NCBI RefSeq assembly: GCF_029625215.1
Contig: NZ_CP121197.1
Span: 2,480,001 to 2,544,000, forward strand
Direction: 5' to 3'
Origin: Aurantibacillus circumpalustris
Lineage (GTDB): Bacteria; Bacteroidota; Bacteroidia; B-17B0; Aurantibacillaceae
DNA length: 64,000 nt
The notes beneath the pieces are model-generated. The model was not told the origin of the DNA and searched no databases. It was given only the letters and a program-made list of their open reading frames with translations. Shown piece after piece: positions 41,558 through 56,033 of this stretch. A program made the position numbers and the translations under genes. Within the stretch, counting starts at the first letter, position 1; every line of letters begins with the position of its first letter.

Positions 41558-44500
41558 ATGAAAAAAAACTACCAATCTATCAAGTTGATGATTGCTTGTC
41601 TTATCCTTTTTGGATTAAAGGCTGGTGCTCAATTATCAGGAATCGTTACAATTAACAACACCATTCCTTCCTCGGCTACAAACTTTACTAGTTTTACGGC
41701 CTTTGCCGCTGTTGTAAATACCGCAGGTGTTAGTGGCCCCTTAACTGTAAACGTCGCTGCAACCTCTAATCTTTACACAGAGCAAGTAAGTTTTTCTCAA
41801 GCTCCCGGTATTTCAGCAACCAACACCATAACTATTAATGGTAATGGCCGTACCATAACGTTTAACGCCACTGCCGCTGCTAATCCACATACAATTGTGT
41901 TAAACGGCGCCGATTACATGTTCTTTAATAATTTAAACATTATTGGAACTGGTGCGTCTTATGCTCTTGTGGTTCACTTATGGAATCAAGCAAACAATAA
42001 CGAGTTTCTTAATTGTGCAATAACAGCTCCATTGAATGCGGCATCAACAACGCAAATTCCATTTTCTCTTAGTAATTCTGGTACGGTTTATTCGACTAGT
42101 GGTAACTCAGGTAACAACAACGTTGTAAATACTTGTACTTTAAGCGGTGGTTATTTTTCCGTATGTTATTATGGCAATACTGTGGCACCCTTTACTGTTG
42201 GAAATAAAGTGTTAAATTCTAAAATTCAAGATTTTTATATTTATGGTGTTTATAACTATTACGGTCAGTATTTAACTATTAAGGGTAATATTATAGAACG
42301 CCCTTTTCGTACAACACTAAGTTCTTGTTATTCAATATATCTTTCTACCAGTTCTATAGATATTTTGGTTGAAGGAAATCATATCAGAAACCCTTATCTA
42401 ACCGGTATTACAAACGCTAATTTGGCATATGGTGTTTACGTTGGTTCGGGAGGCACTTCTGGGCATGAGAATATCATTCGTAATAATGTGATCTCTGATA
42501 TGTATTGTAATGGTACAGTTTACGGCATTTATGTTGCTGGTGTTGCTTACACTCTTGTCTATCATAATACAATTATATTAGACGGTGCAACAAATACTGC
42601 TGGTACAACTTATGGTATTTATTCAACTGTTGCTTCAAGTCCGGTAAAAAATAACATCATTATAATTAATCGTGCTGGCAATGGTACTAAATATTGTTTG
42701 TACGCAGGTACAGCAGCAAATACCTGGAACTCGAATCATAATGTGTTTAATATGCTCTCTACTGCTGGTACGAATGGCCTTGTTTTCGCAAGTGTAAATT
42801 ACACGAGTTTAGCAACATGGCAAGCTATTTCTTTAAATGATAAGGGAAGTACAACTGCCGATCCGCTATTTAACAATCCTGGTGCTTGGGATTTTGCTCC
42901 AACTGCTACGGTTGTTAATAATATGTGCCCGCCTTTAGGTGTTACTACAGATTTTAGTTTAACAACTAGAAGCGTTTTATTCCCAGATCCGGGTGCTGTT
43001 GAAGTATTTAATACACCATGTACTGGAGCTCCGGGACCGAACTCGTTTGTTACTCCAACCGTGGCTTTTTGCCCGGGTATGATGCTTGATCTTACTCTTT
43101 TAAACAGTGGAACTTACACAAATTCTGGTTATACCATCGCTTGGCAAACATCTACGGCTTCAGCTGTGGGTCCATTTGCCTCAGTACCTGGTGCAACTTT
43201 AAATAGTTATAATACAGGCCCAATTAATCAAACAATTCATTACAGGGCGGTAATTACCTGTGCGGCTGGTTCAAGTTTTTCAACAGTTCCTCAGTCAGTA
43301 AACGTTGCTCCTGTTACCACAAGTGTAGTACCTTACCATGAAGGTCTCGAAACGCTTGCTTTAAATAAGCTTCCAAACTGTTCTTGGGCTGCAAGTAATG
43401 TTGGTATAAGTAACTTAACCTATACGGCTCCTGCCGGAAACAATAGGGTTCCTCATGCAGGTAGCCAATTCGCTTCTTTTTATAGCTCGCCGTCCGGTAC
43501 TAGTTATTTTTATACTAACGGTATTCAACTAGTTGCCGGAATTACCTATTCTGCTTCCATGTGGTATATTACTGAGTCTGGTTTTAATAATTGGGCAGAT
43601 TTATCCATCATGGTGGGTGGAGGACAAACTCCTGCTGGTATGGTAACCGTTGCCTCAACAGGTGGTACAGTAACACCAATACTTTACACACCGCTTTCAA
43701 ATACATTTGTAGTACCTCTTTCGGGCTTATATTACGTTGCTGTGAAAGCTACTTCTGGTGCAGGTGTAGCGCCATATTTAACCTGGGATGATTTAAGGAT
43801 TACAATTCCTTGCGAAATTAATGGGCCTAACTTGTCAATTAGCCCTAGTGCTACAACTATTTGTCAAGGACAAAGCGTTTTATTAACGGGTGTTGGTGCC
43901 GACTCTTATTTATGGAGTGATGGTCAAATAACTACAGTAGGTGTATTTGCTCCAACTTTCCCACAAACATATACGCTTACAGGATTTAACACACTTAGTG
44001 GATGTACAACAACATTGACTCAAATGGTTGATGTTCTTCAATCGCCTCAAGTTACTGCATTTGTAAACGGGCCAACTGGTTGTGCCGGAAAAGCTGTTAA
44101 TGTGGTAGCTCAAGGCGCAGATAGTTACTTTTGGAATACTGGTGCACAAGTTGCTTCAACTTTTGTTTATCCAAACGCAACTACAACTTATTCGGTAATT
44201 GGTACAAATTCTTTGGGTTGCACCAGTATAGCAATACTTCAGGTTTCTGTAAGCCCTGCTCCTAATATCACAGTGTTAGTTTCCAGTACACAATTGTGTA
44301 ACGGAGATCAATTAACACTAACAGGATCTGGTGCAGGAACATATAACTGGCTAACAAGTCTCAACTCTTCTCAAAGTGGTAATCCTTTAACAGTAAATCC
44401 AAATGCTTCAGCTACTTACACAGTTATTGGAAAAGATAACATAGGCTGTGAAGGAAAAGCAACTGTGAGTTTCGCTGTTGAAGAGTGTACAAGTTTGACT

Positions 44501-44749
44501 AAATTATCGAGTTCAAATGTTTCAAAACTTTACCCTAATCCAACTACTGGTGTTTTTGCTATCGAGTTAAATAAACCAGCAAGCAAAATAGAAATCAGTG
44601 ATTTAACAGGTCGCGTAATTTCATCTTATCTGAATGTTGAAGGAAAAGTTAGTTTTAATATCAATACGTTAGCTAATGGCATTTATTATGTCAAAATAAG
44701 TCAATCGGATTCGTATGAAGTAGTTAAGCTTGTAAAAAGCAATAACTAA
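41558..44749 (+). CDS. T9SS cargo protein, paralogue of the preceding beta-helix protein
   Basis: This 1063-residue protein has the same order of modules: signal peptide (LKAGAQ), beta-helix head (about 25-480; ITINGNGRTITFN, NNEFLNCAITAPL, ENIIRNNVISDM) and one Ig-like domain. The jelly-roll module is at about 590-752 with FASFYSSPSGTSYFYTNGIQL and TWDDLRITIPC, then three Ig-like repeats and a type A sorting tail (from 991: LYPNPTTGVFAIELNK...GIYYVKISQ). Protein identity to its neighbour is moderate and spread over the whole length, so the duplication is old. Each gene keeps its own promoter and terminator, so they may be expressed separately. Ligand unknown. Confidence 0.87.
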   Translation: MKKNYQSIKLMIACLILFGLKAGAQLSGIVTINNTIPSSATNFTSFTAFAAVVNTAGVSGPLTVNVAATSNLYTEQVSFSQAPGISATNTITINGNGRTITFNATAAANPHTIVLNGADYMFFNNLNIIGTGASYALVVHLWNQANNNEFLNCAITAPLNAASTTQIPFSLSNSGTVYSTSGNSGNNNVVNTCTLSGGYFSVCYYGNTVAPFTVGNKVLNSKIQDFYIYGVYNYYGQYLTIKGNIIERPFRTTLSSCYSIYLSTSSIDILVEGNHIRNPYLTGITNANLAYGVYVGSGGTSGHENIIRNNVISDMYCNGTVYGIYVAGVAYTLVYHNTIILDGATNTAGTTYGIYSTVASSPVKNNIIIINRAGNGTKYCLYAGTAANTWNSNHNVFNMLSTAGTNGLVFASVNYTSLATWQAISLNDKGSTTADPLFNNPGAWDFAPTATVVNNMCPPLGVTTDFSLTTRSVLFPDPGAVEVFNTPCTGAPGPNSFVTPTVAFCPGMMLDLTLLNSGTYTNSGYTIAWQTSTASAVGPFASVPGATLNSYNTGPINQTIHYRAVITCAAGSSFSTVPQSVNVAPVTTSVVPYHEGLETLALNKLPNCSWAASNVGISNLTYTAPAGNNRVPHAGSQFASFYSSPSGTSYFYTNGIQLVAGITYSASMWYITESGFNNWADLSIMVGGGQTPAGMVTVASTGGTVTPILYTPLSNTFVVPLSGLYYVAVKATSGAGVAPYLTWDDLRITIPCEINGPNLSISPSATTICQGQSVLLTGVGADSYLWSDGQITTVGVFAPTFPQTYTLTGFNTLSGCTTTLTQMVDVLQSPQVTAFVNGPTGCAGKAVNVVAQGADSYFWNTGAQVASTFVYPNATTTYSVIGTNSLGCTSIAILQVSVSPAPNITVLVSSTQLCNGDQLTLTGSGAGTYNWLTSLNSSQSGNPLTVNPNASATYTVIGKDNIGCEGKATVSFAVEECTSLTKLSSSNVSKLYPNPTTGVFAIELNKPASKIEISDLTGRVISSYLNVEGKVSFNINTLANGIYYVKISQSDSYEVVKLVKSNN

Positions 44750-44756
44750 ATAATTT

Positions 44757-44792
44757 AAAAAGTCTTCCAAATGAATTTGGAAGACTTTTTTT
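44757..44792 (+). terminator. Terminator after the second beta-helix cargo gene
   Basis: A perfect 11-bp stem (44761-44771 with 44776-44786) with a 4-base loop has A-run and T-run flanks, so pairing extends further. Confidence 0.92.
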
Positions 44793-44895
44793 AAAGATAG
44801 ACTCATCTTCTTGAATGTTTTTGCGATTAAATATTTAATTCTATCAACTATAAAACTTGCGATTCACCACTTTATTTAGTTAAACATACAGTAAC

Positions 44896-46896
44896 ATGAA
44901 AACAAAAATTTACAAATTAGTATCAAGCGCAAAACAAGGATTGTATGCCCTTACTTTGCTTGTGTCTGGAACGGCATACTCACAAAACACTTTTACCTTT
45001 ACATACTCTGGAAACCAACAAACGATGGCCATTCCGGCAGGTCCTTATCAAATAGAGGTTTGGGGAGCTAGTGGAGGATTAGGAAATATTAACTCGGGAT
45101 CGGTTCCGAACAGCCAAATCGCAGGCGGTGTTGGAGGATATTCTTCTGGCACTATTACTGTTAACGCTCCAACTACCTGGTATATCAATGTTGGTGGCAA
45201 GGGCTCAGATGGATTTCTGAATACGACTGCGCCAGGCGGGTATAATGGTGGCGGTGATGGAAGCGTTAACTCTACACATAGAGGCGGTGGTGGTGGCGGA
45301 GCTACCCATGTTGCTAGTGCAACGGGTATCTTGAGTTCTTTATCTGGAAATCAGTCTGCGGTAGTAATTGTTGGTGGTGCTGGCGCTGGCGGCGGAAATC
45401 AGTCTATTGGTGGAGACGGTGGCGGACTAAATGGAATTCAACCTCCAACTACTACACAATTTTCGAATAGAACAGCTGGTGGTGGCGGATCACAAACAGC
45501 TGGTGGTGCGTGCTATACTAGTGGTTTTGGCGCTGGTTTTGGGCAGGGCGGAACAACGATACAAAATTTAGCTGGCGGCGGCGGTGGCGGTTGGTATGGT
45601 GGCTGCTCCGGCGACAATAGTACTGGCGGCGGCGGCGGTTCCGGTTACATTGGCGGTGTGAGTAATGGTACAACAGCAGCATTTGGTCAGCCTGGTTTTG
45701 TTCCCAATCCCGATGTTTCAGGAAACGGTTTGGTAATAATCACCAAGCTTTGCGATGTTACCATAGGATCTAGTTCTAATCCTGTTTGTCAGGGCAGTAG
45801 TGTAACATTAACCACCTCTGCGGTAACTACTCTTTCCTGGAGTGCCAGTGTTTCAACGGCTTCTTCAATTGTTGTAACACCAACAAGTAACACAACTTAT
45901 TACGTTACAGGAATAGGTTCAAATAACAACTGTGTTACCACTGTTGCAATTAATCTTTCTATGACACCTTTACCAAACATTTCATCCATGGTTAATCCTC
46001 CTTTGTTATGTGTTGGCAATTCAGCTACTTTAACAGGACAAGGAGCAAATACTTATACCTGGAGCAACTTAACTTCAGGCCTCACAACAGCTGTTAGTCC
46101 TAGTGTTACAACTACCTACACCGCATCGGGAACAGATGGTTTTGGATGTGTTAATTCCAATACAGTGAGTGTGGTTGTAAATTCTAATTCAATAAGTGTT
46201 CCTGCCGCTACAACTATTTGTAGGGGTTCTTTGGTTAACCTCACCGCAAGTGGCGCTGTAAGCTATATTTGGAGTAATGGAATCCCACTATCTGGTATTC
46301 TTGTAAGTCCAACTGTAAGTACAGTTTATTCTGTTATTGGTATTGATGTAAACAACTGTTCTTTGAGTAATGCAGTTTCAATAACGGTTAACGATTTACC
46401 AAACGTTTTTCCGTCTACTGATAAAGATATTATTTGCAAAAAAGAATCCGTGGTTCTTAGTGCAACAGGAGCAAATACCTATGCTTGGAGTAATCCAATA
46501 ACGGGTTCCTCAACAGGAGCCTCGGTGACTCTAACTTTGAATATTGATGTTCCTTATTTATTTACCGTTGTTGGTACTGGAAGTAATGGTTGCAGCAAAA
46601 CTGCTACCGTATCTGTGGATGTACAAAAATGTGCTGGTGTAAATGAATTGAGTGAACAAAATACTTTTGTAAGTGTTTATCCGAATCCAAATAATGGATT
46701 ATTCACAGTGGAATCAAAACAAATAAGTTCTGGAACAATTGAAATAATGGATCTTTCAGGAAAAATTATTTTCACTGAAACTGTTAGAGGTAATACAACT
46801 CAAGTAAACATGGGTGATTATGCAGCTGGCATTTATTTTGTTAAGGTTAAAAATGAAACTTCTTTTGAAGTTATTAAACTAATAAAAAATCAATAA
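44896..46896 (+). CDS. T9SS cargo protein with glycine-rich (ALK/LTK-like) head, copy 1
   Basis: The 666-residue protein has a signal peptide (GTAYSQ) and a glycine-rich head (about 30-280). The head starts with a beta strand block (TFTYSGNQQTMAIPAGPYQIEVWGA) followed by Gly tracts such as GGGGGGATHVASATG, IVGGAGAGGGN and GGGGGGWYGG. This layout recalls the ALK/LTK glycine-rich domain. Four Ig-like repeats follow from about 285, and a type A sorting domain from 594 (VYPNPNNGLFTVES...GIYFVKVKNE). It is the first of three tandem copies and has no close TTG/TAnnTTTG promoter that I could find. Function is likely surface adhesion or matrix. Confidence 0.87.
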   Translation: MKTKIYKLVSSAKQGLYALTLLVSGTAYSQNTFTFTYSGNQQTMAIPAGPYQIEVWGASGGLGNINSGSVPNSQIAGGVGGYSSGTITVNAPTTWYINVGGKGSDGFLNTTAPGGYNGGGDGSVNSTHRGGGGGGATHVASATGILSSLSGNQSAVVIVGGAGAGGGNQSIGGDGGGLNGIQPPTTTQFSNRTAGGGGSQTAGGACYTSGFGAGFGQGGTTIQNLAGGGGGGWYGGCSGDNSTGGGGGSGYIGGVSNGTTAAFGQPGFVPNPDVSGNGLVIITKLCDVTIGSSSNPVCQGSSVTLTTSAVTTLSWSASVSTASSIVVTPTSNTTYYVTGIGSNNNCVTTVAINLSMTPLPNISSMVNPPLLCVGNSATLTGQGANTYTWSNLTSGLTTAVSPSVTTTYTASGTDGFGCVNSNTVSVVVNSNSISVPAATTICRGSLVNLTASGAVSYIWSNGIPLSGILVSPTVSTVYSVIGIDVNNCSLSNAVSITVNDLPNVFPSTDKDIICKKESVVLSATGANTYAWSNPITGSSTGASVTLTLNIDVPYLFTVVGTGSNGCSKTATVSVDVQKCAGVNELSEQNTFVSVYPNPNNGLFTVESKQISSGTIEIMDLSGKIIFTETVRGNTTQVNMGDYAAGIYFVKVKNETSFEVIKLIKNQ

Positions 46897-46906
46897 TTGT
46901 TATCAT

Positions 46907-46946
46907 AGAAACTTCTCCGGATAAAATCTGTGAGAAGTTTCTTTTA
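46907..46946 (+). terminator. Terminator in the first repeated spacer
   Basis: A perfect 11-bp stem (46907-46917 with 46932-46942) has a 14-base loop and a short T-tail. The same hairpin, including its loop, recurs after the next gene at 49024-49059. Confidence 0.85.
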
Positions 46947-46979
46947 AGTTCTTTAATCTTTAATCTTAAAACCTAGCAC

Positions 46980-49013
46980 ATGAAAAGAAAAATTTACAAA
47001 TTATTATTAGGAGCAAAACAGGGATTGTTTGCACTTTCTTTGCTTGTAGCTGGAATGGCATACTCGCAAACAACATACACTTTCAATTACACCGGAAGTA
47101 CACAAACGATCACCCTTTCGGGAGGCTCGGTTTTTATACAAATGTGGGGTGCTGATGGAGGAAATAATCTTACAGCAGGTACGGGGGGTAAAGGCGGTTA
47201 TTCTACAGGAACTGTCAATGTTGCCCCAGGCACTTATTATGTTTACGTTGGAGGCAAGGGCACAACGCTACAAGCAGCTTCTACTGCGGCTACAGGCGGC
47301 TTTAATGGCGGCGGCAATTCAGGGGCTTATTCTTCTACTGGTAATGCGTGTGGTTCTGGTGGTGGTGCATCGCATGTTGCATCAGCAACAGGGCTTTTAA
47401 GTACTTTATCAGGAAATCAATCGGCTGTATCTATTGTAGCTGGCGGCGGCGGCGGCGGCGGAGCTAATCATGGAGGAACTAATACGCAAGATCTTGGAGC
47501 GAATGGTGGTGGATTAACTGGTGGAAATGGACTAACGGGCACTTATGGTGGATTTGGCGGCACTCAAGTTGCAGGTGGAAGCAACTCATCAGTTCCTCTT
47601 TATTCAGGCACGATGGCTGAAGGTGGTTCTTTTGGTCAAGGAGGTTCGGCTAATTTGGCACCCAGTGGATATGCTGCATATCCTAGTAATACTGGCGGCG
47701 GCGGCGGCGGCGGTTGGTATGGTGGCGCAGCGGCATTGTGGGAAGGTGGTGGCGGCGGTTCAGGATACGTTGGCGGTACAGTTAATGGTACAACCGCTGC
47801 AGTAGGTCAACCTGGTTTTGTTCCCAATCCCGATGTTTCAGGAAATGGTATGGTAATAATTACAAAGCTTTGCGATGTTACCATAGGAGCTAGTTCCAAT
47901 CCTGTTTGTCAGGGCAGCAGTGTAACGTTAACTACTACTGCGATAACTACTCTTTCTTGGAGTGCTAGTGTTTCAACGGCTTCTTCAATTGTTGTAACAC
48001 CAACAAGTAACACAACTTATTATGTTACAGGAATAGGTACAAACAACTGCGTTGCCACTGATGGAATCAATATTACAATGGTACCTTTACCAAACGTTTC
48101 TTCTATGGTTAATCCTCCTTTATTATGCGTTGGCAATACAGCTACTTTAACAGGACAAGGAGCTATCACTTATACCTGGAGCAATTCAACTACAGGCCTC
48201 ACAACAGCTGTTAATCCTAACGTTACAACTAACTATACCGTATCGGGAACAAATGGTTTTGGATGTATCAATAATGCAGTAATCGGTGTTATTGTTAATA
48301 CAAATGTTATTAGCGTATCAGCAAATACAACTATTTGTACTGGAAAGTCTGTTAATATTTCAGCGAGTGGTGCAGTAACCTATACTTGGAGTAATAATAT
48401 TTCTTTATCAGGTTTATCGGTATCACCTACTTTAACTACAGTTTATTCTGTCATAGGAAGGGATGTTAATAACTGTCTACTTTCAAATTCTGTTTCAATA
48501 ACGGTTAACGATTTACCAAACGTTTTTCTGTCTACTGATAAAGATATTATTTGCAAAAAAGAATCCGTGGTTCTTAGTGCAACAGGGGCAAATACCTACG
48601 CTTGGAGTAATCCAATAACTGGTCCGCTAAATGGAGCATCACTAACACTAACTTTAAATATCGACCTTCCTTACTTATTTACCGTTGTTGGTACCGGAAC
48701 TAACGGTTGCAGCAGAACTGCTACCGTATCTGTGGATGTACAAAAATGTGCTGGTGTAAATGAATTGAGTGAACAAAATACTTTTGTGAGTGTTTATCCG
48801 AATCCAAATAATGGATTATTCACAGTGGAATCAAAACAAATAAGTTCTGGAACAATTGAAATCATGGATCTTTCGGGAAAAATCATTTTCACCGAAACTA
48901 TTAAAAGTAATGCTACTGAAGTAAATATGAGTGCTTTTGCAACTGGCATTTATTTTGTTAAGGTTAAAAATGAAACTTCTTCGGAAGTTATTAAACTAAT
49001 AAAAAATCAATAA
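46980..49013 (+). CDS. T9SS cargo protein with glycine-rich head, copy 2
   Basis: The 677-residue protein has a signal peptide (GMAYSQ), a glycine-rich head (30-295; GGNNLTAGTGGKGGYSTG, GGGGGGGANHGG, GGGGGGGWYGG), four Ig-like repeats from about 297 and a sorting domain from 605 (VYPNPNNGLFTVES...GIYFVKVKNE). The last Ig repeat and the sorting domain are almost identical in DNA to copy 1, whereas the heads differ clearly. The first GGC tract of the head (six GGC codons, 47442-47459) and the second (47694-47711) are triplet repeats. The gene begins 34 bp after the repeated terminator. Confidence 0.87.
   Translation: MKRKIYKLLLGAKQGLFALSLLVAGMAYSQTTYTFNYTGSTQTITLSGGSVFIQMWGADGGNNLTAGTGGKGGYSTGTVNVAPGTYYVYVGGKGTTLQAASTAATGGFNGGGNSGAYSSTGNACGSGGGASHVASATGLLSTLSGNQSAVSIVAGGGGGGGANHGGTNTQDLGANGGGLTGGNGLTGTYGGFGGTQVAGGSNSSVPLYSGTMAEGGSFGQGGSANLAPSGYAAYPSNTGGGGGGGWYGGAAALWEGGGGGSGYVGGTVNGTTAAVGQPGFVPNPDVSGNGMVIITKLCDVTIGASSNPVCQGSSVTLTTTAITTLSWSASVSTASSIVVTPTSNTTYYVTGIGTNNCVATDGINITMVPLPNVSSMVNPPLLCVGNTATLTGQGAITYTWSNSTTGLTTAVNPNVTTNYTVSGTNGFGCINNAVIGVIVNTNVISVSANTTICTGKSVNISASGAVTYTWSNNISLSGLSVSPTLTTVYSVIGRDVNNCLLSNSVSITVNDLPNVFLSTDKDIICKKESVVLSATGANTYAWSNPITGPLNGASLTLTLNIDLPYLFTVVGTGTNGCSRTATVSVDVQKCAGVNELSEQNTFVSVYPNPNNGLFTVESKQISSGTIEIMDLSGKIIFTETIKSNATEVNMSAFATGIYFVKVKNETSSEVIKLIKNQ
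47442..47459. repeat. (GGC)6 triplet tract
   Basis: Six consecutive GGC codons for glycine occur in the head of copy 2; a second (GGC)6 lies at 47694-47711. They are conspicuous in an AT-rich genome. Confidence 0.85.
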
Positions 49014-49023
49014 TTGTTATCAT

Positions 49024-49064
49024 AGAAACTTCTCCGGATAAAATCTGTGAGAAGTTTCTTTTTA
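49024..49064 (+). terminator. Terminator in the second repeated spacer
   Basis: The same 11-bp stem as at 46907 (49024-49034 with 49049-49059), with an identical 14-base loop and a longer T-tail. The spacer is part of the duplicated unit. Confidence 0.87.
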
Positions 49065-49088
49065 GTTCTTAATCTTAAATCTTAGCGC

Positions 49089-51125
49089 ATGAAAATAAAA
49101 ATTTACAAATTAGTATCAAACGTAAAACAAGGTTTGCTTGCGCTTGCGTTGACCGTATTTTCGGGTACGGCACATTCGCAAGCAACTTACACTTTCAGTT
49201 ACACAGGAAGTGCACAAACCGTAGCCGTTCAGGCAGGTTCTTATTCAATAGAGTGTTGGGGAGCAGATGGTGGAGATGGTGGAGATCTTGCTGCTTATAT
49301 CGGATCAGGTGGTAAAGGTGGTTATAGCAATGGTGTTTATTCAGTAGCTACACCCACAATTCTATACATTTACGTTGGAGAAAAGGGTCAATCGACAAAT
49401 ACTACGGGCGCAGCAATCGTTACAGCAGCGGGCGGTTGGAATGGCGGCGGCGGTGGTTTTAACGGCTCTTCAGGTAGTTATTACAAAGGCGGCGGCGGCG
49501 GCGGCACTGATGTTAGAACTACTCAAAACACTACTTATTTAAATAGGGTAATTGTTGCCGGCGGCGGCGGCGGCGGCGGCGGCGCCGCTAGTGCACCATA
49601 TATTGGAATTGGAGGTAATGGAGGTGGTACATCCGGCCAAGATGGCATATTAGGATCGTCACAAACTACGCACAACGGTTTAGGAGGAACGCAAAGCGCA
49701 GGTGGTGTTGGTGGTGTATATGGCTCGACTAGTATAGGAGTTACCGGTGGTTTTGGTCTTGGTGGAGATGGAGGAAGTATATCTGGCAATGTTTACCCTG
49801 CCGGTGGCGGTGGTGGTGGTTGGTATGGCGGCGGCGGCGGGGCAACTCAAGGCGGCAGTGGCGGCGGTGGTTCAGGCTACATTGGTGGTGTAACCAGTGG
49901 TACAACTATCATGTTTGCGCAATCTGGTTTTGTTCCCAATCCCGATGTTGCAGGAAACGGTAGGGTAATAATCAGACAGCTTTGTGATGTTGGCATACAA
50001 GCTAGTTCTAATCCTGTTTGCGAAGGTACCAGTGTAACGTTAACCTGTACTGCGGTAACCACACTTTCTTGGAGTTCTACTGTTTCAACAGCTTCTACAA
50101 TTGTTGTAACACCTACAAGTAATACAACTTATTACGTTACGGGTATAGGTTCAAACAATAATTGCGTTTCCACTGCTGCAATCAATATTTCCATAACACC
50201 ATTGCCAAACATTTCTTCCATGGTTAATCCTCCTTTATTATGTGTTGGCAATTCAGCTACTTTAACGGCATCTGGAGCAAATACTTATACCTGGAGTAAC
50301 TTAAGTTCAGGCATCACAACAGCTGTTAATCCCAGTGTTACAACTACTTATTCCTTATCAGGAACAAATGGTTTTGGATGTATCAATAATGCAGTAATCA
50401 GTGTTAATGTTAATACAAATGTTATTACCGCTTCCTCAAATACAACTATTTGCTCTGGCGAATCTGTAAATGTTATGGCAAATGGCGCTGTATCTTATAC
50501 CTGGAGCAATGGAGCCGGTTTATCGGGCTTCATAGTTTCTCCAACCGTAAGTACTGTTTATTCGGTTTTAGGAACTGATGTTTTAAATTGTGAGCTTTCA
50601 AATTCAGTTTCTATTACGGTTAAAGCTTTACCAAACGTTTTTCCGTCTACTGATAAAGACATTATTTGCAAAAAAGAATCAGTGGTTCTTAGCGCAACAG
50701 GAGCAAATACCTATGCCTGGAGTAATCCAGTAGCAGGTTCTTCAACAGGAGCCTCGGTGACTCTAACATTAAGTATAGATATTCCTTATTTATTTACGGT
50801 TGTTGGTACTGGAACAAACGGTTGCAGTAGAACCGCTACCGTATCTGTAGATGTGCAAAAATGTGCTGGGGTAAATGAATTAACTGAACAAAATACTTCT
50901 GTGAGTGTTTATCCAAATCCAAATAATGGATTATTTACAGTAGAATCGAAGCAACTTAATTCTGGAACTATCCATATTACAGATGTAACAGGACGAGTTG
51001 TTTTAGTGACTAATATGGTAGATGAAAAAACTCTCATTAATATAAGTAACTTAAATAATGGTGTTTATTACGTTAGAGTTTCGAATATAAACTCTTTTGA
51101 GACTTTTAAATTTGTGAAAAATTAA
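49089..51125 (+). CDS. T9SS cargo protein with glycine-rich head, copy 3, with a different sorting-domain end
   Basis: The 678-residue protein has a signal peptide (GTAHSQ), a glycine-rich head (30-290) with two long GGC tracts (GGGGGGTDVRTTQ, VAGGGGGGGGAAS), four Ig-like repeats from 298 and a sorting domain from 606. Up to VYPNPNNGLFTVESKQ it matches copies 1 and 2 closely. From there on the last 50 or so residues (GTIHITDVTGRVVLVTN...GVYYVRVSN) differ abruptly and resemble the tail of the beta-helix group (MDVTGRVV). This suggests exchange of the tail. Otherwise it is a normal T9SS type A cargo. Confidence 0.87.
   Translation: MKIKIYKLVSNVKQGLLALALTVFSGTAHSQATYTFSYTGSAQTVAVQAGSYSIECWGADGGDGGDLAAYIGSGGKGGYSNGVYSVATPTILYIYVGEKGQSTNTTGAAIVTAAGGWNGGGGGFNGSSGSYYKGGGGGGTDVRTTQNTTYLNRVIVAGGGGGGGGAASAPYIGIGGNGGGTSGQDGILGSSQTTHNGLGGTQSAGGVGGVYGSTSIGVTGGFGLGGDGGSISGNVYPAGGGGGGWYGGGGGATQGGSGGGGSGYIGGVTSGTTIMFAQSGFVPNPDVAGNGRVIIRQLCDVGIQASSNPVCEGTSVTLTCTAVTTLSWSSTVSTASTIVVTPTSNTTYYVTGIGSNNNCVSTAAINISITPLPNISSMVNPPLLCVGNSATLTASGANTYTWSNLSSGITTAVNPSVTTTYSLSGTNGFGCINNAVISVNVNTNVITASSNTTICSGESVNVMANGAVSYTWSNGAGLSGFIVSPTVSTVYSVLGTDVLNCELSNSVSITVKALPNVFPSTDKDIICKKESVVLSATGANTYAWSNPVAGSSTGASVTLTLSIDIPYLFTVVGTGTNGCSRTATVSVDVQKCAGVNELTEQNTSVSVYPNPNNGLFTVESKQLNSGTIHITDVTGRVVLVTNMVDEKTLINISNLNNGVYYVRVSNINSFETFKFVKN
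49488..49583. repeat. Two GGC triplet tracts, (GGC)6 and (GGC)8
   Basis: Tracts at 49488-49505 (six GGC) and 49560-49583 (eight GGC) encode glycine runs in the head of copy 3. Length change by triplets would vary the number of glycines without a frameshift. Confidence 0.85.
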
Positions 51126-51155
51126 GTTTAACTAAAATAAACATAAAAAATTTCT

Positions 51156-51193
51156 AAAACCCCTTGAGAATATATCTCAAGGGGTTTTTATTT
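51156..51193 (+). terminator. Terminator after copy 3
   Basis: A perfect 14-bp stem (51156-51169 with 51175-51188) with a 5-base loop, then a T-rich tail. It is unrelated in sequence to the terminators of copies 1 and 2. Confidence 0.9.
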
Positions 51194-51432
51194 GCACAAC
51201 CAAATACCATTTTGGTAAACTAATTTAGGTAAGAGTTAGTTATAGTACTTAAAAATGACCCCCTATACATAACCAAAAAGGATTAGAAGTGTTTCAGAGA
51301 ATTAAATCATTTGTGTTTTTTTACCAATAAACAAAATAATGGTTTTTGTTTATTGATTTTAATCAACAGAGCCAAGGTCAAGCTTTCATACCTTTAGATA
51401 TTGATTTTTTAATATTTAGCATATCTTAAAAC
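51194..51432. other. Gap before the large glycine-rich cargo gene
   Basis: No gene or repeat is seen. A near-match to the Bacteroidota -7 box (TACCTTTA, 51389-51396) lies 37 bases before the next start, but no TTG sits at the right distance. Confidence 0.4.
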
Positions 51433-54400
51433 ATGAAACACTTAAACATTTACTCTTTATTGATTGGCCGTCTGAACTTAAGAACAAGAAAATACTTTGT
51501 TTTTCTTGGTTTATGTTTAGGTCTAAACTCAATGATAGCTCAGCAAACATATACTTTTACGAATGCGGGAGCAACAGGAAGATTTGGACCATCTCAGACA
51601 CAAATAAACTCTGCTTATTTAAGTACAAGTTTAAACGGATCTGTTGTTGCAACGGCTGGCATCCAGTCTTTTACGGTATCTGGTGGAGTATATAGAATTA
51701 CTGCATACGGAGCGCAAGGCGGCAATAGTGGGAGTTATGTAGGCGGCTTAGGTGCAAAAATGCAAGGGGATTTTATTCTTAGCGCCGGTGCGGTTATAAA
51801 AGTTTTAGTTGGACAACAAGGCGAAATTCTTACAAACTATAATACTGGTGGTGGTGGTGCTAGCTTTGTTTGGGTTAACGGACAAGCGTTGCCACTTGTT
51901 GTTGCAGGTGGTGGTGGTGGAACAGGTTATAGTGCAGGTGGTGTAAATGCAAGTACAACTACAGCTGGTACAGCTGGTACCGGAGTTTCTGGTGTGGCAG
52001 GAATAAATGGCAATGGTGCCAATCCAGGCGGTGGTGGCTGGCTTTCGGACGGTATCAATTTTCAGGGTGCCAGCTGTGCCGCAAAATGTAGTGGAAATGT
52101 AGCAGGGCTTACTGTTGGTGGGGCTTCTCCCACAACAACAATATTGTATCATGGTTGTGCAGGTACTAGTTCTACAGGTGATGGCGGTTTTGGTGGCGGT
52201 AGTGGAGCAAATGGCAATTGTACAACTTCGTATGGCGGCGGCGGTGGCGGCGGTTATTCTGGAGGTGTAGGACAATCGGGATCAAGTGCCGGCGGTGGCG
52301 GCGGTGGATCGTATAATGGAGGAACTAGTCAAGTTAATACAGCCGCAGCAAATTCAGGTCATGGAAAAGTGGTAATAGAAGAATTATGTAACATTTCCCT
52401 TTCAAGTTTAACCAGCAGCAGTATCAATGCTATTTGTAATGGTAATTCAGCCACTCTAACAACTAACGCTGTAAGTAATTATTCGTGGAGCACAGGTGCA
52501 AGCAGTTCTTCGGTTGTGGTTTCTCCAACAACGACAACAGTGTACACTTTGGGTGCGACAAGTGCGTCTAACTGTACCGCTTATGCAGCAATTACAATAA
52601 CGGTGAACGGATCTCTTCCTGTTTTAACGGTGGCCAATACTGCCAGTTCAAGCGGAGGTATTTGTCCTACGCAAACAGTAATGCTTACTGCAAGTGGCGC
52701 TTTAGTTCACAATTGGGCAGGTGGAGCAATACCTGTAACCAATGGAGTGGTATTTTCTCCAACGTCAGCAGTGAGTTACACCGTGAGTGGCGTGAATGGT
52801 TGTGGAACAACAACGGCTGTGACTTCAGTTTCTGTTCATCCTTTCCCAACAGTTAATCCTGCAACCAGTTCTTCTACTTTATGTGCAGGCGGTAGTGTCA
52901 CTTTAACTGCAACGGGTAATGCAACCAATTACGCGTGGTCTGGTGGCTCGGGTCCTATTACCAATGGTGTCGGATTTGCACCTGCTATCACCGCAACTTA
53001 TGTTGTTATTGGAACAAGTGCTTTGAGTTGTACAGCCTTTGCTACTATGCCAGTTACGGTTTATCCAACACCGATTAATGCGCCTACCGCAAATCCTAAT
53101 TTAATTTGTATTGGTGGTAGTTCAACTCTTTCTGCAACAGGTGCTCTTTCGTATACATGGGCAAGTACTACACAAACTGTAAACACATCAGATTTTACGG
53201 TGACGCCAAGTATTGGAATCACAACATATACCATTACAAAAGCAAATTCTTCGTGTGTTAACACTCAAGTGCTTTCACTTCAGACAAATCCTTTACCGAC
53301 TGTTTTTGCAATTGTAACTCCAACCGTGGTTTGTGCACTAACACCTGCAACGCTTGCCATTGGTGGTGCTCTCACCTATACATGGACCTCTCCTGGACCT
53401 CCAACTTATACCTTTACCGGTTCTAGTCCTATTGTTAGTCCTATTGCGCCTTCAGTTTATTCAGTGGCTGCTTCTGATGGAACTTGTATTAGTACAACCA
53501 CGGTGTTTTTAAATGCAAATCCAAATCCAACAATTACGGTTTCTGCGAGCACACCAACACTCTGTGAAGGTCAAACCGTTAACCTTAATGCTACTGGTGG
53601 AATTAATTATAACTGGACAGCTACCGGTGGTGGTGTTTTTACTGGAGCCAGTATTGCTGATACTCCAACAACTGCTACTGCTTATAATGTAACAGGTGAT
53701 AATTCTTTTGGTTGTACTTCCGGTGCTAGTCAGGTTGTTTTAGTTTATGCAAAACCTAACTTAACGGTAACATCAAATAAAGCCTTGATCTGTTCTGGCG
53801 GTGGCGCCACTTTAACAGCTCTTGGAGCTAGCACATACAGTTGGGATGCAAATGCTAATAATGTTTTAACTGCTATTGCTGTTGTAAATCCAATTGCACT
53901 TACTTCAAGTGCTATTATGTATACCGTGGAAGGAACAAACTCCAGTACAGGTTGTAAAAACACTCAAACAGTTGCAGTAAGCGTATTTATTCCAACACTT
54001 ACTATTAGTGGTAGCACAAACACTTGTTCTGGCGGACTAATTAATCTAAATGGAGGTAATGGCGTTTTGGGTACATACAACTGGCATACAGGTAGTGGGA
54101 CTCCAATTACCAATCAAATTTTACAAATACCGCTTACTGTAGCATCTGTATTCACCCTTACAGCCAATAGCAATTCTGTCGGTTTAATTTGTCCTGCAAC
54201 ACAAACCATTGCTTTGGGTATTTATTACAACCCTACCATTACTGCTGTTCCCGCAAGAACGCTTATTTGTGTAAAAGAATCTGTTGAAATTACGGCAGCC
54301 GGAGGCTCAAGTTATGCGTGGGATAATACCATGACAGGTCCAACCATTACAGTGTCTCCAAACGGCACTGCTGCCAATTATACAGTAACAGGAACAGATG

Positions 54401-54711
54401 ATAACGGTTGTAGTAGTACCGCAACTGTTCAAGTGAAAATATCAAGCTGCGCTGGATTAAATGAATTAAGTCATTTAAATAGCGAAATAAGCATTTATCC
54501 AAATCCGAATGATGGTAAGTTTACTATTCAAACGAATGCCGATTTAAAATTGAGTTTAGTAAATGAACTCGGTCAACTCATTAGAGTGATAAATCTGTCT
54601 GCAATCAATAATCATGAAGTAAACATCAGTGATCTTGCAAAAGGAATTTATTTTGTAAGTGGAAGAAAGGATTCAAGTCAGATTTATCAGAAGATTGTAG
54701 TGATAAAATGA
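51433..54711 (+). CDS. Large T9SS cargo protein: glycine-rich head and nine Ig-like repeats
   Basis: The 1092-residue protein has a long N-terminus and signal peptide (LGLNSMIAQQ), then a glycine-rich head (about 40-315; GGGGASFVWVNG, VVAGGGGGTGYS, GGGGGGGYSGG). From about 318 it has nine Ig-like repeats of about 75 residues, each of the form C.G..V.L.A.GA..Y.W...T.Y.V.G....C, often ending in a P-rich linker. A type A sorting tail from 1021 (IYPNPNDGKFTIQT...KGIYFVSGRKD) ends the protein. The repeat stalk would project the head several tens of nanometres from the cell. It is a distant relative of the three tandem copies, with Ig repeats expanded from four to nine. Surface adhesin is the best guess. 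Confidence 0.88.
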   Translation: MKHLNIYSLLIGRLNLRTRKYFVFLGLCLGLNSMIAQQTYTFTNAGATGRFGPSQTQINSAYLSTSLNGSVVATAGIQSFTVSGGVYRITAYGAQGGNSGSYVGGLGAKMQGDFILSAGAVIKVLVGQQGEILTNYNTGGGGASFVWVNGQALPLVVAGGGGGTGYSAGGVNASTTTAGTAGTGVSGVAGINGNGANPGGGGWLSDGINFQGASCAAKCSGNVAGLTVGGASPTTTILYHGCAGTSSTGDGGFGGGSGANGNCTTSYGGGGGGGYSGGVGQSGSSAGGGGGGSYNGGTSQVNTAAANSGHGKVVIEELCNISLSSLTSSSINAICNGNSATLTTNAVSNYSWSTGASSSSVVVSPTTTTVYTLGATSASNCTAYAAITITVNGSLPVLTVANTASSSGGICPTQTVMLTASGALVHNWAGGAIPVTNGVVFSPTSAVSYTVSGVNGCGTTTAVTSVSVHPFPTVNPATSSSTLCAGGSVTLTATGNATNYAWSGGSGPITNGVGFAPAITATYVVIGTSALSCTAFATMPVTVYPTPINAPTANPNLICIGGSSTLSATGALSYTWASTTQTVNTSDFTVTPSIGITTYTITKANSSCVNTQVLSLQTNPLPTVFAIVTPTVVCALTPATLAIGGALTYTWTSPGPPTYTFTGSSPIVSPIAPSVYSVAASDGTCISTTTVFLNANPNPTITVSASTPTLCEGQTVNLNATGGINYNWTATGGGVFTGASIADTPTTATAYNVTGDNSFGCTSGASQVVLVYAKPNLTVTSNKALICSGGGATLTALGASTYSWDANANNVLTAIAVVNPIALTSSAIMYTVEGTNSSTGCKNTQTVAVSVFIPTLTISGSTNTCSGGLINLNGGNGVLGTYNWHTGSGTPITNQILQIPLTVASVFTLTANSNSVGLICPATQTIALGIYYNPTITAVPARTLICVKESVEITAAGGSSYAWDNTMTGPTITVSPNGTAANYTVTGTDDNGCSSTATVQVKISSCAGLNELSHLNSEISIYPNPNDGKFTIQTNADLKLSLVNELGQLIRVINLSAINNHEVNISDLAKGIYFVSGRKDSSQIYQKIVVIK

Positions 54712-55924: not shown

Positions 55925-56033
55925 TTAAATCTTCCATCTTACCTTTTCCATTTTCCATTTTACCTTTTCCATCCTATCTTTTCCCTTTTCCATCTTCCTT
56001 TTTCCATCTTCTCTTTCCCTTTTCCATTCCTCA
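55925..56033. repeat. Pyrimidine-rich degenerate repeat (TTTTCCAT-type)
   Basis: About a hundred bases contain many imperfect copies of TTTTCCAT and TTTTCC(C/A) with almost no G on the plus strand. Just upstream (55872-55902) is another short repeat of the form TGTAAAATGTAA. The tract reaches up to the start codon of the next gene, so it forms that gene's whole leader. Confidence 0.8.

Follow-up and report, generated by a model that had tools for sequence, protein, structure and literature searches.

How three neighbouring genes come to end in almost the same DNA while beginning with clearly different glycine-rich regions is the question raised by array A, a tandem cluster at positions 44896-51125 of a 64,000-nucleotide window (G000:C1:2480001-2544000) from Aurantibacillus circumpalustris, whose 4.6 Mb genome (G000) consists of a single contig. 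The original prediction, made from the letters of the window, invoked a recent triplication. The analysis reported here points to a different history: the chromosome probably has several banks of modular surface proteins exported by the type IX secretion system (T9SS), this region being one of them, in which heads of trans-species ancestry are mounted on an immunoglobulin-like (Ig) stalk and a sorting tail homogenised by recombination.

Array A includes three intact open reading frames (ORFs) on the same strand, A1, A2 and A3, of 666, 677 and 678 amino acids, whose starts are 2084 and 2109 bp apart, as predicted. Each encodes a signal peptide, a glycine-rich head (PF12810), Ig-like repeats (inspection of the alignment by eye gives four) and a T9SS tail of type A (PF18962/TIGR04183). 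The PF12810 scores of A1, A2 and A3 are 105, 79 and 109 bits against a gathering score of 24.5, and the C-terminal Por_Secre_tail/TIGR04183 matches exceed the curated cut-off in all three and in neighbouring genes. The genome contains at least 150 sorting tails and one gene matching SprA_N (E 2e-155), SprA being the only component of the secretion machinery searched for. Judged by their domains, the array A genes would be ordinary T9SS cargo. In the following list, B1, B2 and B3 are the genes of a second array, array B, described below.

44896..46896, plus strand: A1, array position 1; head allele same as in B3, 97.5% DNA identity to B3 over 2075 bp including the spacer
44986..45753, plus strand: glycine-rich head domain of A1 (PF12810 E 8e-30), with a predicted ALK/LTK glycine-rich domain (GRD) fold
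46404..46953, plus strand: homogenised tail of A1 (fourth Ig repeat, sorting domain and hairpin spacer), common to A2, B1, B2 and B3
46897..46979, plus strand: spacer after A1 with terminator-like hairpin, near-identical after A2, B1, B2 and B3
46980..49013, plus strand: A2, in the second position of the array; allele as in B2
47070..47870, plus strand: glycine-rich head of A2 (PF12810 E 5e-22)
49014..49088, plus strand: spacer between A2 and A3, its hairpin the same as that after A1
49089..51125, plus strand: A3, array position 3, with its own sorting-domain variant; head nearest to B1 and two genes of the second tail type
49182..49985, plus strand: glycine-rich head of A3 (PF12810 E 5e-31)
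51126..51200, plus strand: strong terminator hairpin after A3, unrelated to the A1/A2 spacer hairpin; end of the array

Ancestry of heads and tails

Synonymous divergence (dS) is not even along these genes and differs strongly by module, in line with the uneven identity first noticed. Specifically, the A1-A2 values are 0.91 for the glycine-rich head, 1.26 for the third Ig repeat, 0.31 for the fourth (Ig4) and 0.15 for the sorting domain. The claim that the last Ig repeat and the sorting domain are nearly identical in copies 1 and 2 holds for tracts of 97-99% identity, but these are interrupted by patches of 81-85%. In A3, Ig4 is shared with the other copies, while the last 60 or so codons and the terminator are its own. 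The longest tracts shared by A1-A2, A1-A3 and A2-A3 were reached in none of 500 permutations; together with the non-uniform dS, this supports homogenisation of the 3′ half by recombination, as proposed. Also the likeness of the first two spacers was confirmed: they are nearly the same over about 49 nt, including the hairpin AGAAACTTCTC-14 nt-GAGAAGTTTCT (11-bp stem, 14-nt loop), which folds at -19 kcal/mol, with 0 of 200 shuffles as good.

The heads tell another story than the tails. Head and tail trees were built from 30 GRD genes of G000 and five congeners. In the tail tree, family I (the array genes) and family II (the genes bearing a second tail, see below) each form one clade (100/100). 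In the head tree, the members of both families lie dispersed, many of them next to genes of other species, so that at least 3 changes are needed for family I (shuffled mean 5.6) and at least 8 for family II (shuffled mean 7.9). The approximately unbiased (AU) test rejects both families as head clades (p 5e-39 and p 3e-5, respectively). Conversely, five groupings of heads are rejected when imposed on the tail tree (p at most 1e-6), values that are descriptive because the groupings were picked after the head comparison. In particular, A1/B3 are joined by a congener gene, from G019 (100/100); A3/B1 fall together with a G047 gene and a pair of G000 genes bearing the other tail (100/98); and A2/B2 stand alone.

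DNA identities follow the same division. Signal peptides are closer within the genome (0.78-0.83) than to congeners (0.52-0.72), and so are the best tails in seven of eight pairs (0.85-1.00 versus 0.47-0.54), whereas heads are closer to congeners (0.70-0.81) than to their own genome (0.53-0.63). For example, A3 and the G047 gene L146 are 76% identical in DNA, with homology confined to gene bases 89-889. In other words, tails display the hallmark of concerted evolution, paralogues being closer within a genome than orthologues, and heads do not; sharp-ended tracts longer than expected are present as well. Between species, head dN/dS (nonsynonymous over synonymous divergence) is about 0.06-0.14, in pairs with saturated dS; these head types are conserved under purifying selection and do not diversify. 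Independent cases exist: neighbouring tails are 90% alike in G041 and 89% alike in G046, with different heads. Taken together, trees, identities and substitution ratios show that most heads predate the species and evolve under purifying selection. Signal peptides, stalks, sorting domains and spacers, by contrast, are homogenised within each genome and strongly different between species; tails, younger than the heads, have been copied over.

Some heads may even have moved between species after speciation. Differences at fourfold sites amount to 0.31 between L018_112114 and G008 and 0.36 between A3 and G047, as compared with 0.73 and 0.67 for the pdhB control in the same species pairs and 0.45-0.57 for unrelated heads. 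These values are suggestive of transfer, although codon bias of the glycine runs could also lower fourfold differences.

Two observations from congeners are added here. Upstream of pdhB in G041 (L165:15033-18010), where the window has its array, lie two unrelated tandem T9SS-like genes whose last 300 residues are 85% alike and first 300 are 65% alike, so that a further protein family shows this unevenness. A congener GRD gene (G009:C256:31843-33690, L150) contains an internal TGA between head and tail and is a possible pseudogene or assembly error.

Probable exchange between distant loci

Array B maps at G000:C1:1278222-1284450 (locus L016), 1.24 Mb from array A. It has the same upstream neighbour (A0 in array A, B0 in array B) and the same three heads on the same strand, with the gene order reversed: A1 equals B3, A2 equals B2 and A3 resembles B1. 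A1 and B3 show zero differences in codons 1-111 and 295-666; of the 39 codons at which they do differ, mostly synonymously, nearly all fall within codons 175-243 (45418-45626), which may be either an old unconverted tract or a tract from an unsampled donor. Between A2 and B2, most differences are in codons 1-53, with some short patches elsewhere. In both pairs the runs of identity end sharply within the genes. B1, in turn, combines an A3-like head with an A1-type sorting domain (dS 1.16 for the head, 0.00 for the sorting domain).

The flanks 5′ of the start codons track position (A1-B1 0.72, A2-B2 0.91, A3-B3 0.97, with A1-B3 at 0.57), whereas the first 250 codons track allele (A1-B3 0.94, A3-B1 0.84). 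Since 5′ flanks are colinear but heads reversed, reading frames seem to have been swapped in the manner of cassettes; a colinear duplication of the array followed by reading-frame exchange would best account for the mismatch.

The phenomenon extends beyond the arrays. Seventeen genes, one of them in the window, spread over six loci and have a second tail, about 2.3 kb long and 78-92% identical in DNA, behind either a glycine-rich head or some other head. In this family II, the median dS drops from 1.70 over the head region to 0.18-0.51 in the fourth and all later tail modules. Genes at distant loci have exact tracts of 971, 850 and 746 bp in common, the nearest paralogue switches along the tail in a patchwork, and within one tail near-identical patches coexist with patches of dS above 0.5. 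Same-locus tails hardly have an advantage over different-locus tails (identity 0.887 versus 0.869). Likeness of tails within the genome is seen also at the protein level, at most about 52% being reached towards congeners. The neighbours of array A involved are the following:

41558..44749, plus strand: A0, large T9SS cargo gene upstream of the array, homologue of B0 and colinear anchor of both arrays; mosaic, 55-80% identical at the 5′ end and 96-99% at the 3′ end
51433..54711, plus strand: family II gene with a different, weakly glycine-rich head and the second tail type

The A0/B0 mosaic, with its 96-99% identical 3′ end, implies that tail homogenisation reaches a third cargo family. Further downstream, between a pdhB-like gene and the next gene, short tandem repeats with periods of 14, 21 and 35 were observed at 55932-56028.

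The mechanism that we infer from these patterns is homologous recombination. Each gene is built of a signal peptide, a glycine-rich head of predicted ALK/LTK fold (or another head), an Ig-like stalk and a C-terminal sorting domain, and the similar gene ends would act as arms for gene conversion or double crossover. Following pairing of the arms, alike DNA would be copied over, while heads that are too different would be spared, or a whole head would be moved between the two arms to another position or locus. Newly transferred heads would gradually gain the local tail, and a common tail would keep every head compatible with the secretion and anchoring machinery of the cell.

Alternatives to the proposed exchange

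Among other explanations, the one that survives best is that duplications and translocations put tail copies behind unrelated, pre-existing heads in one recent burst, with little ongoing conversion. The presence of the second tail behind heads that are not glycine-rich would fit such a capture, and so would the lineage-specific expansion of PF12810 matches, of which G000 has 21, the 39 congeners 0-8 each and the 14 control genomes 0. Nevertheless, the patchwork of nearest neighbours in the second tail and its mixture of near-identical and dS>0.5 patches need many later events, signal peptides are homogenised as well, and the A1-B3 and A2-B2 identity runs break off sharply inside the genes. A single burst is therefore considered unlikely.

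Several points weigh against the bank of exchanged modules favoured here. The exchange events are deduced from their traces and none was caught in the act, and repeated duplication of tails onto pre-existing heads would look partly alike. The groupings tested in the tail tree were chosen once the head comparison had been seen, and one gene, L088, is an exception, its tail matching G041 better (0.61) than the closest of the other G000 GRD genes compared (0.52). The A3/B3 5′ flanks may match simply since A2/B2 units bring their own spacer, and binding of ligands by the heads is a prediction.

The original prediction, read here as a recent tandem triplication with fast divergence of the heads and gene conversion keeping the 3′ half alike, would account for the tandem order, the common spacer and terminator and the low 3′ dS. 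However, the heads of A1, A2 and A3 belong to three different old lineages, two of which have members in other species or with another tail, and they evolve under purifying rather than accelerated evolution. Triplication of whole genes is rejected, as the six array heads do not form a single clade (AU p 5e-39, as above). The model is thus refuted for the heads and very improbable as a whole, while its conversion part stands. The presence of the arrays is lineage-specific, as both sites lack them in the congeners examined: empty sites were found in five congeners at site A (the pdhB site) and in three at site B, and the same copies at the same positions are absent in congeners, the only genomes checked.

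Finally, that consensus polishing made the repeats falsely identical, as the long exact tracts between distant loci might suggest, is hardly credible, given that the likeness of tails persists at the protein level (at most about 52% to congeners) and recurs in the independent assemblies G041 and G046, and that the arrays have unique flanks and sites that are empty in congeners.

Predicted fold of the heads and known systems

An AlphaFold2 model of the A1 head, built with a 71-sequence alignment, reached a pLDDT (per-residue confidence) of 94.4 and a pTM (predicted template modelling score) of 0.92; the three window sequences alone gave a pLDDT of 34. The top 21 Foldseek matches in the PDB consist entirely of ALK/LTK glycine-rich domains (E 4e-8 to 5e-5, template modelling (TM) score about 0.5), the next being the tail-tip protein of phage Bxb1 (E 2e-4). 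Predicted phage proteins, several of them named virion or tail proteins, also match the model, with TM up to 0.75. A sequence-based PDB search gave no matches. The glycine-rich head is hence predicted to adopt the ALK/LTK fold, here in a bacterial, T9SS-exported protein without a kinase. Glycine-rich bundles of polyglycine/PPII (polyproline II) helices have been treated together for ALK and the phage S16 adhesin gp38 (PMC13243192). With respect to glycine-rich phage tail adhesins the likeness is one of fold, phage tail and structural GRD proteins matching the head model; gp38 itself is absent among the fold matches listed. These similarities, and the pairing of gp38 with ALK, make a binding role a reasonable proposal: the heads may be adhesins, each with its own ligand, such as a glycan or protein on the surface of prey, host or particles.

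In gingipains, adhesin domains sit behind the protease. The nearest precedent is offered by the Porphyromonas gingivalis surface protein genes RgpA/Kgp/HagA, whose products are likewise T9SS cargo, have adhesin domains and sorting tails in common and owe their diversity to rearranged domains and exchanged alleles (PMC5266723). This likeness is drawn from their description and not from sequence comparison. In P. gingivalis the shared parts are the adhesin domains, while here the heads vary and homogenisation affects the stalk and tail of more than 20 genes, spread over eight loci. Polymorphic toxin systems also keep a constant delivery region uniform and the business end exchangeable. In the array genes, by contrast, it is the N-terminal end that varies, with binding and not poisoning as its predicted role; immunity genes were not noticed between them, although no search aimed at such genes was made.

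Shufflons resemble the arrays in that one surface protein can draw on a stock of different ends, but the copies in the window are complete genes on the same strand without inverted sites. A shufflon or site-specific inversion was rejected for the window, as all copies lie on the same strand and 44000-52500 contains no inverted repeats of at least 30 nt. With regard to pilin-like gene conversion, in which silent partial copies feed one expression site, all array copies are complete ORFs. The Bacteroidota-type promoter motif was not found in the array spacers, its frequency in the window being no higher than chance, and an Rfam search of the window gave no matches.

Other genomes contain related arrangements. 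Two contigs of Segatella albensis DSM 11370, NZ_AUFP01000034.1 and NZ_AUFP01000035.1 (L051:1-5802 and L081:1-5230), each carry several GRD frames without starts of their own and in mixed orientation. Most of them begin at the 18-bp motif ACACACGGGAAGTGTGCA, present in 6 and 5 copies on both strands (0 expected), and the two loci look like shufflon-type banks of glycine-rich heads. A Bacilli metagenome-assembled genome (JAFYYX010000001.1, L060:9560-20252) has about eight adjacent same-strand GRD frames of 400-660 amino acids; tandem GRD banks are thus not confined to Bacteroidota.

A speculative extension, which we regard as distinctly doubtful, is that spacer hairpins would limit read-through so that the head in position 1 dominates, recombination between the common signal-peptide and tail arms moving heads between positions and loci (the A1 allele occupies position 1 in array A and position 3 in array B) and heads from other species being refitted with the local tail. 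If true, the displayed adhesin would switch without a site-specific recombinase.

No description of the head/tail pattern was found in the literature (open-licence papers), and both its scale and the fold of the heads set the G000 system apart from the P. gingivalis precedent. As the head alone carries ancestry, annotation or orthology assigned by whole protein or by tail is misleading. Bacteroidota carry large sets of T9SS proteins without a known role; in G000, many of these join trans-species heads to a genome-specific, homogenised tail, and the genome offers a tractable set of about 20 natural glycine-rich domains of predicted ALK fold for asking what such domains bind.

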